Source: a virus. Taken from it: a stretch of 28,510 nucleotides of DNA. Below the pieces are notes generated by a model, which did no database searches, had not been told where the DNA came from, and worked only from the letters and a program-made list of their open reading frames with translations. The stretch lies in the IMG/VR virus record IMGVR_UViG_3300008110_000307, positions 1-28,510 of that record, one strand, 5' to 3'. Positions 2,160-14,048 of this stretch are shown here, piece by piece; the stretch's first letter is position 1, and the number at the start of each line of letters is the position of its first letter. Position numbers and translations under genes: made by a program.

Positions 2160-3785
2160 ATGGCAACATCCAAAAATTTATCAAATATTAATATAGGTAC
2201 TTCTCCCAATAGTGGAGATGGAGATCTATTACGAGACGCATTTATTAAAGTTAATTCTAATTTTAATGATACTTATAATAATGGACAATTTGTAGGATAT
2301 GGTCAAGACCAAAAATTAATACCTGGTTATACATGGGATGGTGATAAAGATACTGGTATGTATCATGCATCATCGGGAGCTATTGGATTTTCTTTAAATG
2401 GTTTAGAATCATTATTATTGAACAATGATGGTACTATTAAATGGTTCAATAAACAATTAGCAACACAAGATTATGTTACTGCACAATTAACTTCTTTTAC
2501 TGGAGGAATAAGTGGTGCAAATATTTCCGTGTCAACAGGATCGGGAAATGTTAGTGTAACTGTTAATGGTGTTCCTGTAGTATCTTCATTGCCAACAACA
2601 GGAAATTATCAAGGACGTATTGTATTTAATAATGGAGATGTTTGGATATATTCAAATTATCCTGCAGGAAACGGAACAGGATTACCTGCAGATTCTAGTA
2701 TAGCAAGAGCTGCGGGTTCAGATTCAAGATGGGTTAGATTCAGAGGAGACCAAGCAGTATCAATTGGTTTGGTTCGTCCCCCAATTGCTGCAGAAGGAAC
2801 TACATTCTACGAAACAGCAAATGCAAAAATATACATGTATTTGTCTGGTTCTTGGAAAACATTATCAAGTTTAATTACTTCAAGTTCCCCATCAGGATTA
2901 GAAGTATTAGTTTCATTGCCATCAGTAGGCGATGCTGGTAATTATTCTGGCAGAACAGTTATTGTAGGTTCTATTGCTTATATTTTTATAAGTGGTGCTT
3001 GGCAAACATTAAGCACATACGTAGGGTCAAATGCTGCAGTAGGCGGAGGAATTTCGTCAGGTATATTATTACCACCTACTGCAAATGTCGGCGAATTGTT
3101 TAGATTAACAATTGCATCGGGCGTATCTTTACCCGACTTATACATATACGATGGAGGTAATTGGCAAACTTTACCTCAATATACTGCAAATACGGGAACT
3201 GCAAGTATAAAAACACTTACAGGATTGCCTTTAGATGTTAGATATTATAATGCTGGCGATTTAATTATAGTAGGTGGGAAAACTTATATTTTAAATACTG
3301 CAAAAACAAGTTGGGATTTATTCACACCCGGCGCAAATACTACAGTAACAAATATAGTATTAAATGCAGGGCAAGTAGGTACAACCCAATTAGCAAACGC
3401 ATCAATTACAAATATTAAATTAATAGCAAACAGTATTACATCTGATAAATTAGTAAACAATACTATTACAACTAGAGAATTATCTGATGGATCAGTAACA
3501 GATGCTAAGTTAGCAGCAAATAGTATTACTTCAGCAAAAATACAATCCGGAATAATAACCGGAAGAGAAATTGCAGGCAATTCTATTCCAGGTAATAGAA
3601 TACAACTAGGAAGTATTACTTCAGATTTATTAGCTCCAGGGGCAATTGCAATTAGCAGAATAAATGCTAATACATTATCTGAACTATCTCAAAATGCAGG
3701 TACATTGACTTCGGGGGTATTAAAATCTTCTGACGGCAAAATGATGATAGATTTAAATAATAAGTTTATAAGAATTGAACTATAA
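2160..3785 (+). CDS. Modular tail-fibre protein (541 aa)
   Basis: Residues 10-40 (NINIGTSPNSGDGDLLRDAF, then IKVNSNF) and 58-80 (YTWDGDKDTGMYH, then SGAIGFSLNG) match N-terminal segments common in fibre proteins of T4-like marine phages. Residues about 141-390 hold five degenerate beta modules of roughly 40-60 residues, three of which end in a W-x-T-L signature (SWKTLSS, AWQTLST, NWQTLPQ). Residues 411-510 are ten tandem decapeptides in perfect register. The end (LTSGVLKSSDGKMMIDLNNK) resembles a fibre-tip segment. This reads as a trimeric fibre: baseplate anchor, repeated shaft, distal end. Host binding is inferred, not shown. The start is two bases after the upstream stop. Confidence 0.85.
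   Translation: MATSKNLSNINIGTSPNSGDGDLLRDAFIKVNSNFNDTYNNGQFVGYGQDQKLIPGYTWDGDKDTGMYHASSGAIGFSLNGLESLLLNNDGTIKWFNKQLATQDYVTAQLTSFTGGISGANISVSTGSGNVSVTVNGVPVVSSLPTTGNYQGRIVFNNGDVWIYSNYPAGNGTGLPADSSIARAAGSDSRWVRFRGDQAVSIGLVRPPIAAEGTTFYETANAKIYMYLSGSWKTLSSLITSSSPSGLEVLVSLPSVGDAGNYSGRTVIVGSIAYIFISGAWQTLSTYVGSNAAVGGGISSGILLPPTANVGELFRLTIASGVSLPDLYIYDGGNWQTLPQYTANTGTASIKTLTGLPLDVRYYNAGDLIIVGGKTYILNTAKTSWDLFTPGANTTVTNIVLNAGQVGTTQLANASITNIKLIANSITSDKLVNNTITTRELSDGSVTDAKLAANSITSAKIQSGIITGREIAGNSIPGNRIQLGSITSDLLAPGAIAISRINANTLSELSQNAGTLTSGVLKSSDGKMMIDLNNKFIRIEL
3390..3689 (+). repeat. Ten tandem decapeptide repeats in the tail fibre
   Basis: Residues 411-510 of the 541-aa fibre protein fall into ten consecutive 10-residue units without a single indel. 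Each starts with Leu or Ile and usually carries Ser/Thr-Ile-Thr at positions 5-7, for example LIANSITSDK and LAANSITSAK. DNA identity between units is low, so this is an old protein-level repeat rather than a recent tandem duplication. Repeats of this style usually form a fibrous shaft. Confidence 0.9.
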
Positions 3786-8607: not shown

Positions 8608-9033
8608 ATGAAAAATTTAGAAAATTTGAATAATCTTTTTAATATTGATCCTATGGAGGAAACTTCAACAGCCATTCAACCTTTGCCTGAAAATTTAAAT
8701 GGTAATAAGGAAATGGATCAAGAAGAGGATTATCAATTAGCTCGTCAAACGATGCGTAAGTTATTACTTAAGGGCGAAGATACTTTAGATACATTAATTG
8801 AATTATCTAAAAGTTCTGAGCATCCAAGAACATATGAAGTTGCTGGGCAATTCATGAAAACTTTATCTGATGTATCTAAAGATTTAATGGGTCTGCAAAA
8901 ACAAGTTAAAGATTTAAAAGCAGATGATCCTGTAAAAATAGGAACACAAAATAATAATGTTGTGTTTGCTGGCTCTACGAATGAGCTAATGAAAATGCTA
9001 GGCAAAAAAGATGACAACATCATCGACCAGTAA
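8608..9033 (+). CDS. gp16: Small terminase subunit gp16
   Basis: 141 residues (T4 gp16: 164), lying between gp15 and gp17 as in T4. It has a polar, variable N-terminus, then a helical core YQLARQTMRKLLLKGEDTLD followed by LIELSKSSEHPRTYEVAGQF and a second helix LSDVSKDLMGLQKQVKDLK, the usual oligomerising coiled coil. The C-terminal end (VVFAGSTNELMKML) is also conserved in the family. The protein recruits DNA and stimulates the large terminase. Its last 23 bases overlap the gp17 start. Confidence 0.9.
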   Translation: MKNLENLNNLFNIDPMEETSTAIQPLPENLNGNKEMDQEEDYQLARQTMRKLLLKGEDTLDTLIELSKSSEHPRTYEVAGQFMKTLSDVSKDLMGLQKQVKDLKADDPVKIGTQNNNVVFAGSTNELMKMLGKKDDNIIDQ

Positions 9034-10696
9034 AAAATTATCTTATAATGGTAATCCCAATCTAAAACAGATTGGTACGGTTATCTCTTATTCTGCAGAA
9101 CAAGTTAAAGAAATAATTCGTTGTTCTCAGGATCCTATATACTTTATAGAACAATATTGCCAAATTGTTTCTTTGGATAAGGGCCTAATACCATTTAAAT
9201 TATACGATTGTCAAAAGAAAAAAGTATTAACCATATTGAATAATCGTAAGGTTATTCTAATGGAAGGCAGACAGCAGGGAAAGACCATTACTTCTGCTGC
9301 TTGTATACTTTGGTACACTTTATTTCAATCAAATAAAACTGTTGCTATTCTTGCTAACAAATCCTCCGCTGCTAGAGAAGTTCTTTACAGATATGAGATG
9401 ATGTATGAAATGCTTCCGATCTGGATGCAGCAAGGTGTAAAAACATTCAACAAGGGCGATATAGAATTAGAAAACGGATCTAGAGTATTTACTGCAGCAA
9501 CAAGTTCTTCGGGTATTCGAGGTAAATCTGTAAATTGGCTGTACATTGACGAAGCGGCAATTATTCCAAATAATGTTGCTGAAGATTTCTTTACATCTGT
9601 TTATCCAGTTGTTTCTGCAGGTGAAACTACAAAGATTCTTTTAACTTCTACTCCACTTGGATATAATCATTTCTGGAAATTCTGGAATGAAGCAGAACAG
9701 GGATTAAACGGATTTGTTCCTATGTTTATTCCTTACAGTGAGATTCCTGGTAGAACTGAAAAATGGGCGGAAGAACAAAGAGCATTATTGGGCGAGCTTA
9801 AGTTCAACCAAGAGGTTTTATGCAGATTCTTGGGATCATCTAATACACTTATCAATCCTGATACTATTGGAAGAATGTCAGTCAAACCATATGTTTACAG
9901 TAAAGATGGTTTAGATGTGTTTGACGAACCGGAAGAAGAAAAAGTTTATATGTTGGTAGCGGATACCTCGCGTGGAGTTGGTGGGGATTACTCCGCATTT
10001 GCAGTCATGGATATTACCGCGTATCCCTTTAAAGTTGTTGCGAAGTATAGAAACAATAAAATAAGCCCCCTTCTTTTTCCGAATATAATATATAAAGTAG
10101 CCAAGGATTATAACAAAGCTTATTGTTTAGTTGAGATTAATGATAACGGGCAACAAGTAGCGGATACTTTGTATATGGATTTGGAATATGAGAATGTGTT
10201 CTTTGTCGGAAGTAATAGTAAATCAGGGCAATTTTTATCTGGCGGATTCTCCCAGGGAGCGACTCTTGGGGTTAGAACCACTAAACAAGTAAAACGATTA
10301 GGGTGTACCTCATTTAAGAGTTTGGTTGAAGGTACGAAATTATTAATACACGACCCAGATATTATTAACGAAATATCCACATTCATTGAAGTCCGCGGAA
10401 GTCATAAAGCAGATGAGGGATATCAGGACGATTTAGTTATGTGTTTGGTCTTATTCTCATGGGCCACTAACGAATCATTCTTTAAGGATTTAACAGACTC
10501 AAATCTCAGAAAAGCTCTATACGAAGAACAGTTCAAACAGATTGAAGAAAATCTTACTCCGTTTGGTATTATAGATACGGGAATTCCCGAACACGAAGCT
10601 CCGCAGATTATGTCGGATGCTATTTGGTTTAATGTTGGTTCAAAATCTCAAGATGAAATACAAGAATTACAAAGAAAATTCCTTGAAAATGTCTAA
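9011..10696 (+). CDS. gp17: Large terminase subunit gp17 (packaging ATPase and nuclease)
   Basis: 561 residues (T4: 610). ATPase domain: adenine-side region PFKLYDCQKK (61-70), Walker A GRQQGKT at 86-92 with Lys91, Walker B WLYIDE at 176-181 with Asp180 and Glu181, and coupling motif LTSTP at 211-215. RNase H-like nuclease domain: first acid Asp318 in VADTSRGVGGDYSAF, second Glu375 in CLVEIND, third in GYQDDLVM at 470-477. All catalytic residues are present, so the enzyme should be active. It translocates DNA into the prohead at the portal gp20 and cuts it. The start overlaps gp16 by 23 bases, and a late promoter follows its stop. Confidence 0.97.
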   Translation: MTTSSTSKKLSYNGNPNLKQIGTVISYSAEQVKEIIRCSQDPIYFIEQYCQIVSLDKGLIPFKLYDCQKKKVLTILNNRKVILMEGRQQGKTITSAACILWYTLFQSNKTVAILANKSSAAREVLYRYEMMYEMLPIWMQQGVKTFNKGDIELENGSRVFTAATSSSGIRGKSVNWLYIDEAAIIPNNVAEDFFTSVYPVVSAGETTKILLTSTPLGYNHFWKFWNEAEQGLNGFVPMFIPYSEIPGRTEKWAEEQRALLGELKFNQEVLCRFLGSSNTLINPDTIGRMSVKPYVYSKDGLDVFDEPEEEKVYMLVADTSRGVGGDYSAFAVMDITAYPFKVVAKYRNNKISPLLFPNIIYKVAKDYNKAYCLVEINDNGQQVADTLYMDLEYENVFFVGSNSKSGQFLSGGFSQGATLGVRTTKQVKRLGCTSFKSLVEGTKLLIHDPDIINEISTFIEVRGSHKADEGYQDDLVMCLVLFSWATNESFFKDLTDSNLRKALYEEQFKQIEENLTPFGIIDTGIPEHEAPQIMSDAIWFNVGSKSQDEIQELQRKFLENV

Positions 10697-10765: not shown

Positions 10766-13456
10766 ATGGCATTTCAGCTTTCACCTGGCGTTGTAGTAAC
10801 CGAAGAAGATAGAACAACCTTTGTTCCTTCCGTTGCAACCACTGCAGGAGCGTTTACAGGCGCTTTCCAATGGGGCCCTGTGGAAGAAGTTACGACCGTA
10901 GATTCGGAAAGTTCTTTAGTAAGTACTTTTGGTAGACCAAACGACACAACTGCGGGATATTTCTTTACCGCAGCAAATTTCTTGTCATATGGAAACAATC
11001 TTAAAGTTGTTCGTGTTGTAGATAAATCAACATCAAGAAACGCAGTTTCTACCCCCACAGGAATAATCACAGGAATTACCTTAGCTACAGATGTGGGTGG
11101 TCCAACTAATGTAACAACTACCACATTCTTAACAGCATCAAATATTAATGTTATTATTGAAAATCCAATTGCTGGCGGAACACAGGCTACTGCAAATGTT
11201 GTTTTAGAAACAACAGGGAATGTTGCAAAATTACTTATCAATAATGCAGGACAAGGATATAATACTGCGCCAAGCTTATCGTTTGAAGCAGCGGCAGGTG
11301 GTACTGGAACTACCGCAACTGTTGCACTAGGGTCAGGGGCTCTTGCAAATATTTACGTTATAGATGGCGGTAATAATTATACATCCACATCTAATGTGGT
11401 AATTCAAAATCAAGCAGCAACCGGTGCAAGAGCAAATCTAGTTGTTAGATATAAATTGATACAAGTAGGTGTGGCAAACGGCGGGACAAATTATGGGCCA
11501 CAAGCAAATATACAATTTAGCGGAAATATTGCAGAAAATGGGACACATGCTACAGCATCGTTAGTTCTAAGCGGAGGAAATACAATAACAGGTATTGTAA
11601 TTACTAGTATGGGTTCAGGATATATATCTACTCCCAATGTAATTATTAATAGAAGAGATGGAAATACTGGTTCTGACGCTTCTGTTGTAGCAAATATAGG
11701 ACATGGTTATGTTGATAGCGTAGTAATTGATAATACTGGTCCCGGCGGATATAGTTATCAGCCAATTCTTACAGTTAACAGAAATAATAGTTTAGGTGGC
11801 GCAAATGCTGCGTTACAATCTCGTATCAATAGCGGCATTGCAAGTGTAACTTTAGTAGATACAGGTTCTGGGTATATTAGAAATCCTAATGTAACTGTTA
11901 CACCTGCCACATCTGACATTGGATTTATTACTACAAATGCAGATATATTAGCAGTAGTAGAATATTTAATTGACAGTGTAAATCTAATTAATCCTGGTAC
12001 AGGATATGGTTCTGCTCCTACAGTTACAGTTAGTACAGTTGCAGGATTTAGTACTCCTGCAAATGCAACAGTTACATCAAATCCTACACTAATTACAAAT
12101 CGAGATTTTTATCAGGCAACTTATGAAAATGGATCTGCAACAGTTGGAGAATTTGCTGCTAAGTATCCCGGAGAATTAGGAAACTCTATTAGAGTTTCAA
12201 TGGCGGATTCTAATACATTTAGCACATGGCAATATGCTGCTAATTTTGATTCTGCTCCAGGAACATCTGCATACGTTTCTGGTAAGAGTGGATCGTTGGA
12301 CGAGATGCACGTTATTGTTGTGGATTCAAATGGAACTTGGTCAGGTACATCTGGTTATGTACTTGAAAAATTCTCATTCTTATCTAAAGCATCTGATGCT
12401 AAAAATTCCGATGGATCAACCAATTATTACAGAGACGTAATTAATAATCAATCTAATTATGTTTGGTGGATGGATCATCCTTCACAAGGTACAAACTGGG
12501 GAACATCTGGTTCAAATAAAACATTTGCAGTATTAAGTTCTGCAGTTACAAATACTTTATCCGGCGGGGTTTCTTCAGATAGTGTTTCTTCAGGAAATGT
12601 ATCAATTGGATATAATCTTTTCTCTAATGACGAATTGTATGATGTTAGCTTAATCCCAATGGGACCAACTACAGATGTATCAGTAGTTAATAGCGTTATT
12701 GGCATTGCGTCAACCAGACGAGATGCTGTAGTATTTGTATCACCTCCATACACTTCAGTTGTTAATTCTACAACTCCTGCAGATAATATTGTTTCTTACA
12801 GAAATACTTTAACAGATTCTTCTTATGCTGTTTTAGATTCTGGTTGGAAATATCAGTACGATCGTTATAACGACAAATATCGTTATGTTCCATTGAACGG
12901 GGATATTGCAGGTCTTGCAGCAAGAACAGATTACATTGCAGATCCTTGGTTCTCTCCTGCGGGATATAATAGAGGTGTTATTAAGAATGTAGTTAAATTG
13001 GCATATTCTCCATCCAAGACAGATAGAGATACATTGTACAAGAAGGGTGTAAATCCTGTAGTAACATTCCCAGGACAAGGAACATTGCTGTTTGGTGATA
13101 AAACTCTACAATCAAGACCAAGCGCATTTGATCGTATTAACGTACGTAGATTGTTTATTGTTCTTGAAAAAGCAATTTCTACAGCATCTAAATTCCAGTT
13201 ATTTGAATTTAATGATCCATTTACTCGCGGACAATTTAGAAACCTTGTAGAACCATTCTTAAGAGATGTACAAGGTCGCAGAGGTATTACAGACTTTAAA
13301 GTTGTTTGCGACGAAACAAACAACCCAGCTTCTGTAATTGATGGAAATCAATTTGTTGCAGATATTTACATCAAGCCTGCAAGATCGATTAACTTTATCC
13401 AGTTGAACTTTATAGCTACAAGAACTGGCGTATCTTTCGAAGAAGTAGGCGCATAA
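10766..13456 (+). CDS. gp18: Contractile tail sheath gp18 with a large repeat insertion (896 aa)
   Basis: The N-terminus (MAFQLSPGVVVTEEDRTTFV) and the C-terminal domain (GYNRGVIKNVVKLAYSPSKT, INVRRLFIVLEKAI, FKVVCDETNNP, KPARSINFIQLNFIATRTG) are typical of T4-family sheath proteins, which wrap the tube and contract during infection. The length is 896 residues against 659 in T4. The excess lies mainly at residues about 110-430, where seven Gly-x-x-Tyr units occur (next entry). The domain that resumes at about residue 447 (DFYQATYENGSATVGEFAAK, YPGELGNSIRVSMAD) is again sheath-like. The insertion therefore lies within protruding domains and should not break the contractile core; that is inference. 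Strong AAGGAG ribosome-binding site. Confidence 0.95.
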   Translation: MAFQLSPGVVVTEEDRTTFVPSVATTAGAFTGAFQWGPVEEVTTVDSESSLVSTFGRPNDTTAGYFFTAANFLSYGNNLKVVRVVDKSTSRNAVSTPTGIITGITLATDVGGPTNVTTTTFLTASNINVIIENPIAGGTQATANVVLETTGNVAKLLINNAGQGYNTAPSLSFEAAAGGTGTTATVALGSGALANIYVIDGGNNYTSTSNVVIQNQAATGARANLVVRYKLIQVGVANGGTNYGPQANIQFSGNIAENGTHATASLVLSGGNTITGIVITSMGSGYISTPNVIINRRDGNTGSDASVVANIGHGYVDSVVIDNTGPGGYSYQPILTVNRNNSLGGANAALQSRINSGIASVTLVDTGSGYIRNPNVTVTPATSDIGFITTNADILAVVEYLIDSVNLINPGTGYGSAPTVTVSTVAGFSTPANATVTSNPTLITNRDFYQATYENGSATVGEFAAKYPGELGNSIRVSMADSNTFSTWQYAANFDSAPGTSAYVSGKSGSLDEMHVIVVDSNGTWSGTSGYVLEKFSFLSKASDAKNSDGSTNYYRDVINNQSNYVWWMDHPSQGTNWGTSGSNKTFAVLSSAVTNTLSGGVSSDSVSSGNVSIGYNLFSNDELYDVSLIPMGPTTDVSVVNSVIGIASTRRDAVVFVSPPYTSVVNSTTPADNIVSYRNTLTDSSYAVLDSGWKYQYDRYNDKYRYVPLNGDIAGLAARTDYIADPWFSPAGYNRGVIKNVVKLAYSPSKTDRDTLYKKGVNPVVTFPGQGTLLFGDKTLQSRPSAFDRINVRRLFIVLEKAISTASKFQLFEFNDPFTRGQFRNLVEPFLRDVQGRRGITDFKVVCDETNNPASVIDGNQFVADIYIKPARSINFIQLNFIATRTGVSFEEVGA
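11222..12046 (+). repeat. Seven-copy G-x-x-Y repeat array inside the sheath protein
   Basis: Seven units share the pattern hydrophobic strand, N/D-x-G-x-(G/N)-Y, short loop, strand. Examples are INNAGQGYNTAPSLSF, VIDGGNNYTSTSNVVI, ITSMGSGYISTPNVII and LVDTGSGYIRNPNVTV. The motifs start at 11243, 11363, 11477, 11609, 11732, 11858 and 11990, a spacing of 38-44 codons. The linkers are Ala/Thr/Asn-rich. The regular spacing suggests stacked beta modules projecting from each sheath subunit. Confidence 0.88.
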
Positions 13457-13472
13457 CAGGAGAATAATAAAA

Positions 13473-14048
13473 ATGGCAATACCATTTAATGTAGAACGAT
13501 TTAAAGCAGAACTTACAAACGGCGGCGCAAGACCGAATCAGTTTGCAGTTCAAATGACCTTCCCTAACTATGTTTCGGGAAGAACTGCTGCTCTTGCAAA
13601 GGCGCCCTTTTTAGTTAGTGTTGCGGAATTACCAGGACAAACCATCGGGGTTGCTCCAGTTTATTATCGCGGACGATTAGTTAAAATGGCAGGCGACAGA
13701 GAGTTTGCTCCATTTAACTGTACAGTTCTAAACGACTCAGGATTTACTATTAGAACAGCCATTGAACAATGGATGAACGGAATAGAAGATCTTGCTAACA
13801 AGACAGGTGCTTTACAACCAGCCACATATCAAACAGATATGTTTGTTTCCCAATTGGATCGTAATGGCGCAGTTCTAAAACAATATAAATTATTAGGAGC
13901 CTTCCCTGTAGACTTGGGAGCAGTTGCGTTAGATTTTGGATCCAACGATCAGTTGTCGACATTTGGTGTATCATTCCAGTATCAATCTTTTGAATTCTCT
14001 AATAATCCAGCACAACAATTGGTCGACGCATTAACATCATTAGGTTAA
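13473..14048 (+). CDS. gp19: Tail tube protein gp19
   Basis: 191 residues (T4: 163). NQFAVQMTFPNYV, FLVSVAELPGQTIG, VYYRGRLVKMAGDREFAPF and SFQYQSFEF are hallmark segments of the T4 tube monomer, which stacks as hexameric rings inside the sheath. It starts 16 bases after gp18 with a CAGGAG ribosome-binding site at 13457-13462, and it shares the gp18 late transcript. A second protein with the same fold is encoded at 20113-20700. Confidence 0.95.
   Translation: MAIPFNVERFKAELTNGGARPNQFAVQMTFPNYVSGRTAALAKAPFLVSVAELPGQTIGVAPVYYRGRLVKMAGDREFAPFNCTVLNDSGFTIRTAIEQWMNGIEDLANKTGALQPATYQTDMFVSQLDRNGAVLKQYKLLGAFPVDLGAVALDFGSNDQLSTFGVSFQYQSFEFSNNPAQQLVDALTSLG

Follow-up and report, generated by a model that had tools for sequence, protein, structure and literature searches.

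Contractile tail sheaths are usually regarded as motors with a passive outside. In T4 gp18, domain I (residues 98-188) protrudes from the tail without sheath-sheath contacts; it binds the baseplate and the retracted long tail fibres, and mutations in it prevent the fibres from retracting (PMC3004832). In large phages the sheath core is extended, mostly by β domains lying away from the tail tube, for which adhesion as well as a cementing or stabilising role has already been proposed (Evseev et al. 2022, PMC9230969). Here we consider a window of 28,510 nucleotides, positions 1 to 28,510 of the IMG/VR virus record IMGVR_UViG_3300008110_000307, whose sheath protein had been predicted, from the letters of the DNA, to carry a seven-unit β-repeat array displayed on the tail surface.

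The sheath gene (10766..13456; this and all features below lie on the plus strand) codes for a T4 gp18-type protein of 896 residues, 237 more than the 659 of T4 gp18, in line with the excess of about 240 given in the original prediction. It matches the Pfam profiles PF22671, PF04984 and PF17482, all above their curated cut-offs, as well as the PHROG profile phrog_23 (E 1e-131), and the top PDB fold matches of its model are the KP1/Lilla1 and T4 sheaths, with E-values down to 2.6e-36. The N-terminal sheath core (10766..11062, residues 1-99) contains PF22671 at residues 32-84 and aligns with T4; the C-terminal core (12086..13453, residues 441-896) comprises the rest of domain II and domains III and IV, with PF04984 at 636-781 and PF17482 at 785-882, so that the array is indeed flanked by clear sheath sequence. 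The gene lies between those for the terminase large subunit (9011-10696) and the tail tube (13473-14048, identified by gene order and sequence only), and ahead of it the window codes for gp13/14/15-type neck and sheath-stabiliser proteins and the small and large terminase subunits; the order gp13-gp14-gp15-gp16-gp17-gp18 is standard for a T4-like phage genome fragment. By terminase (about 49% identity) and capsid (62-63%), the closest cultured relatives are the marine Pelagibacter and Methylophilales T4-like phages Mosig, HTVC008M and Melnitz. A 51-kb metagenomic contig (L083) has an array identical to that of the window at each of the 356 positions compared, and appears to be the same phage. 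We also observed at 2160-3785 of the window a predicted tail fibre protein with tandem short repeats of the SITSxKL/SVTDAKL type (residues ~400-520) and, in the record of Synechococcus phage S-SRM01 (MW015081.1, 128240-129805), a terminase large subunit labelled 'tail sheath protein', apparently an annotation slip.

Between the two core regions lies the inserted β-repeat arm (11063..12073, residues ~100-436, about 337 residues), predicted to be β throughout. A unit HMM delimits seven repeats: unit 1 at 11201..11308 (residues 146-181, core NAGQGY), unit 2 at 11318..11428 (185-221, DGGNNY), unit 3 at 11432..11530 (223-255, NGGTNY), unit 4 at 11564..11671 (267-302, SMGSGY), unit 5 at 11690..11800 (309-345, NTGPGGY), unit 6 at 11822..11914 (353-383, DTGSGY) and unit 7 at 11951..12046 (396-427, NPGTGY). 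Their cores start at residues 160, 200, 238, 281, 323, 365 and 409, a spacing of 38-44 codons, and five of the seven fit N/D-x-G-x-(G/N)-Y exactly, the fourth starting with S and the fifth being one residue longer; NIGHGY at residue 310 fits the motif, yet is not a unit core. The seven units first proposed are thereby confirmed by both motif and HMM, whereas the proposed extent of about 270 residues proved too short for the insert, which probably includes an eighth unit. This degenerate unit 0 (11054..11200, residues ~97-145), without a GxGY core, probably precedes the clear ones: the length of the slot matches eight units of ~42 residues, the AlphaFold2 model has predicted strands at residues 99-106 and 127-131, and in a close relative (L006) the unit HMM gives a weak match of 5 bits at the same position. 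Seven clear copies of a ~40-residue β-repeat and a degenerate one, with the consensus avalsggtvtsItvtngGsGYtsaPtVtIsgpggtGG in tandem at ~40 residues, would then fill residues ~97-438. Detection of the repeat is independent of the training set, since an HMM from sheaths other than the window and its clade still found four window units (13-24 bits each, 44.7 bits in total), and 200 shuffles of the array against this HMM yielded no units and a best total of 2.5 bits. Tandem duplication at the DNA level is weak, with few copies found and about 70% of bases shared over 31 nt, and the array is therefore old, unlike that of the Pseudanabaena sheath described below, with its near-identical units.

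Based on an alignment in which T4 gp18 residue 98 corresponds to window residue 100 and T4 residue 188 to residue 436, and on the same insertion point in domain II, it is well supported that the array stands in place of T4 gp18 domain I. In an array-free relative (L013) nothing aligned to T4 98-188, leaving the domain I slot empty. Against T4-type chains the window protein has no aligned stretch between residues ~105 and 460, and similarity to the domain I barrel is absent. The protruding position of domain I in T4 (PMC3004832) in turn lends good support to the surface display of the array. We considered the gp18 proteins of S-WAM1 (L218, 932 residues; the best viral fold match) and P-TIM40 (L170) as cultured twins and rejected both, as their slots hold a different module, unrelated to the GxGY repeat and apparently duplicated; the domain I slot therefore accepts unrelated modules. 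The shared slot, together with the role of T4 domain I in binding the baseplate and retracted fibres and the block of retraction in its mutants (PMC3004832), mildly favours an alternative in which the arm serves as a docking site for the retracted long tail fibres or touches the baseplate, its sequence following that of the fibres. Units that are specific to their positions (see below) would suit such docking; however, relatives lacking the array get by with an empty slot, and the repeat is present on proteins distant from the fibres as well as on lipoprotein-like and secreted-looking proteins of bacteria, and we hold this explanation to be rather unlikely.

An AlphaFold2 model of the window protein, made from an alignment of 81 sheaths (mean pLDDT 84.7, about 85-94 over most of the array), predicts a regular series of units with three strands each. 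The series lies outside the conserved core, separate from it as originally proposed, and the non-array part of this single-chain model matches T4 and KP1 sheath structures in the PDB. With a pTM of 0.65 the direction and angle of the arm relative to the core are uncertain, which weighs against its reading as an outward arm. The repeat has no matches in Pfam at E up to 10, including the Ig-family profiles, no NCBIfam model contains it, and among PDB sequences there are no matches below E 0.1 and no lectin or CBM structure. By fold, no counterpart was found among the solved structures of the PDB, and an array-targeted search with a low-confidence AlphaFold2 model (9 sequences, mean pLDDT 44) gave nothing convincing beyond sheaths. 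An immunoglobulin-like identity was rejected for want of a profile match and because ~40 residues and three strands contrast with a seven-stranded sandwich of ~90 residues. As to the binding of glycans, raised as a possibility in the original prediction, the profile search against the carbohydrate-binding families of Pfam and NCBIfam was negative, and a carbohydrate-binding module was rejected on the lack of CBM or lectin matches in these databases and the PDB. The composition of the array, with 7% charged residues and no tryptophan, is likewise atypical for sugar-binding sites and argues against adhesion.

We then applied the unit HMM to the complete sheaths of 65 metagenomic loci, not counting that of the window. 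Sheaths of 553-575 residues have no detectable units, those of 641-682 have 0-3 (mostly 1-3), those of 720-743 have 2-4, those of 766-821 have four and those of 881-898 have 6-8, while a wider search added sheaths with eight (L151) and nine (L140) units. Alignment of related gp18 proteins thus bears out a wide variation in copy number, from 0 to 9, and the domain I slot grows from about 33 residues with no units to about 377 with 7-8. When placed on a core-only tree, the five size classes require at least 14 changes against a minimum possible of 4; the 7-8-unit sheaths form one clade of ten with 100/100 support, and array-free sheaths are common among the closest relatives, including the nearest neighbours of that clade. 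The array is a variable module, and the existence of array-free close relatives indicates that the arm is dispensable for sheath assembly or contraction. Neither of the contrary outcomes named in the original prediction, repeats within the sheath core or an invariant copy number and sequence among relatives, occurred. Within the long-array clade, average identity is 45% in the array versus 78% in the core, the array being lower in 36 of 36 pairs, and orthologous units are 48% identical versus 31% for paralogous units of one protein. This faster divergence, together with the position-specific units, points to an old, exposed and diversifying module rather than to a recent duplication or an assembly interface; the same specificity of position counts against adhesion insofar as it also suits bracing or docking with fixed contacts. 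At L148:1080-1082 an in-frame stop splits a sheath gene between ...GYALFSND and LYDVSLIP..., reflecting either a sequencing error or a nonsense mutation.

The repeat recurs on other phage proteins. It forms part of PHROG families 701, 708, 460, 2885 and 5342, phrog_701 matching residues 257-437 of the window sheath with an E-value of 1.1e-20; these families share the GxGY repeat with the window gp18, yet none is a sheath, their annotations being virion structural, baseplate wedge, neck or head closure and tail fibre. In related phages it ends the neck protein gp14 and the sheath stabiliser gp15, and it is also found in gp7 baseplate and tail fibre families and in giant structural proteins. Its presence at the ends of gp14 and gp15 mildly favours the possibility that neighbouring arms pack along the sheath surface as a brace, stiffening or stabilising the extended or contracted tail. 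Conservation of individual unit positions across relatives and the cementing role proposed for extra sheath domains (PMC9230969) fit with this; set against it are the frequency of array-free sheaths among the closest relatives, the lack of subunit contacts of T4 domain I (PMC3004832) and an arm that diverges much faster than the core, unlike an assembly interface, and bracing accordingly strikes us as improbable. In the window's clade (contigs of 222 kb and 190 kb), whole-genome searches placed the repeat essentially in the sheath alone, with one weak match in a ~465-residue protein; members of the 4-unit clade bear it on some four different proteins, and a 202-kb phage with an array-free sheath has a single weak match. 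In cultured cyanophages the repeat mostly sits in giant structural proteins rather than in gp18; among eight isolates examined only S-CAM1 has it in gp18, with three units at a site other than the domain I slot. A tblastn search of the arrays against cultured phages gave no gp18 array match, at a sensitivity reduced by low-complexity masking. We further noted in L154-L157, L149, L153, L159 and L160 a non-sheath open frame of 748-754 residues with about six units, ending in EHELRARF or EYELRARF.

Contractile sheaths encoded in bacterial genomes, cyanobacterial and rhizobial among them, also carry the repeat. A Pseudanabaena contractile-sheath protein (L178:2281-4173, with PF04984 and PF17482) has four near-identical units, which are a recent expansion, at a site unlike that in gp18. 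Sheaths of Metarhizobium, Shinella and Aestuariivirga matching phrog_23 (L186, L188, L192, L197) have about four, N-terminal to or within the subtilisin-like domain. In all these bacterial-genome sheaths the array adjoins that domain or lies inside it and is not in the domain I slot, as judged from where the conserved domains resume; when mapped onto gp18 with the core HMM, L178 aligned over its C-terminal part only, and L192 and L197 did not map. These different sites in unrelated sheaths point to separate insertions. We tentatively suggest, as a possibility we rate as somewhat doubtful, that contractile sheaths of phages and cells customise their outer surface through one GxGY β-repeat, taken up on several independent occasions at different loops and adjusted in copy number, which would yield a modular, variable coat resembling head decoration fibres. 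The bacterial genomes scanned also have the repeat in lipoprotein-like and secreted-looking proteins, so that the unit is a general β building block. In a Dehalococcoidia MAG, an open frame of at least 1,832 residues (L183:1279-6774) holds about 35 copies at ~40-residue spacing. The presence of the repeat in many structural and bacterial proteins, one of them with 35 units, and its frequent changes in copy number are what one would expect of a largely neutral, promiscuous G/A/T/N-rich β-unit that recombination carries from one structural gene to another and that is tolerated where assembly is undisturbed. Yet the 7-8-unit array has stayed intact across the ten-sheath clade (100/100) despite an array identity of about 45%, conservation is unit-specific, and a costly ~340 residues per subunit would be expected to erode; we thus deem neutrality very unlikely.

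We propose instead that the array is an outward-facing arm in place of T4 gp18 domain I, one per sheath subunit, which makes weak multivalent contacts with the outside and is tuned by gain and loss of units, a reading to which we give about an even chance. The T4 sheath has 138 subunits, and by analogy around a hundred or more β-repeat arms would cover the tail, their ~40-residue units predicted by the model to fold as three β-strands and stack in tandem. Most likely the arm would make weak contacts at many points, be it with the host envelope, with extracellular polymers or with particles, and phages adjust it via gain, loss and diversification of units. In favour of this arm are the domain I position, predicted fold, dispensability, copy-number change and fast evolution of the array, together with the presence of the repeat on other exterior proteins and its recruitment into unrelated sheaths at other sites; against it stands the lack of a match to ligand, lectin or adhesin families. 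The range of zero to nine copies among related viruses suggests that phages can swap what the tail surface shows outside. Close relatives with largely the same motor offer a natural series (0, 2, 4, 7-8 and 9 units) for studying the function of the tail exterior, and a model of this unmodelled repeat family, which recurs across phage virions and bacterial contractile sheaths, would improve the annotation of giant 'virion structural proteins'.

In the open-access literature we found no description of a tandem, copy-number-variable sheath repeat arm or of the GxGY repeat as a family. Variation in sheath outer domains is already known; the copy-number-variable repeat arm appears to be the new element. 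With T4 gp18 (PMC3004832; 3FOA, 9MKB) the window protein shares the core fold, gene position, insertion point and an outward-facing accessory domain, but domain I of T4 is one 91-residue six-stranded barrel with a helix, while the window slot holds about eight tandem β-repeats without sequence similarity to it. The survey of Evseev et al. 2022 (PMC9230969) covers mainly Ig-like sandwiches in few domains, and its text does not mention repeats, whereas here a short unit occurs in 0-9 copies across the family. Arguing from analogy, T4 Hoc is the functional counterpart on the head, and the role of the arm may be comparable to that of the Ig-domain fibres on T4 heads: both would display on the outside of the virion, in many copies, a string of variable β domains, although Hoc is a separate, non-covalently bound head protein with Ig-like domains, whereas the string in the window is built into the sheath subunit from ~40-residue units (PMC10385173).
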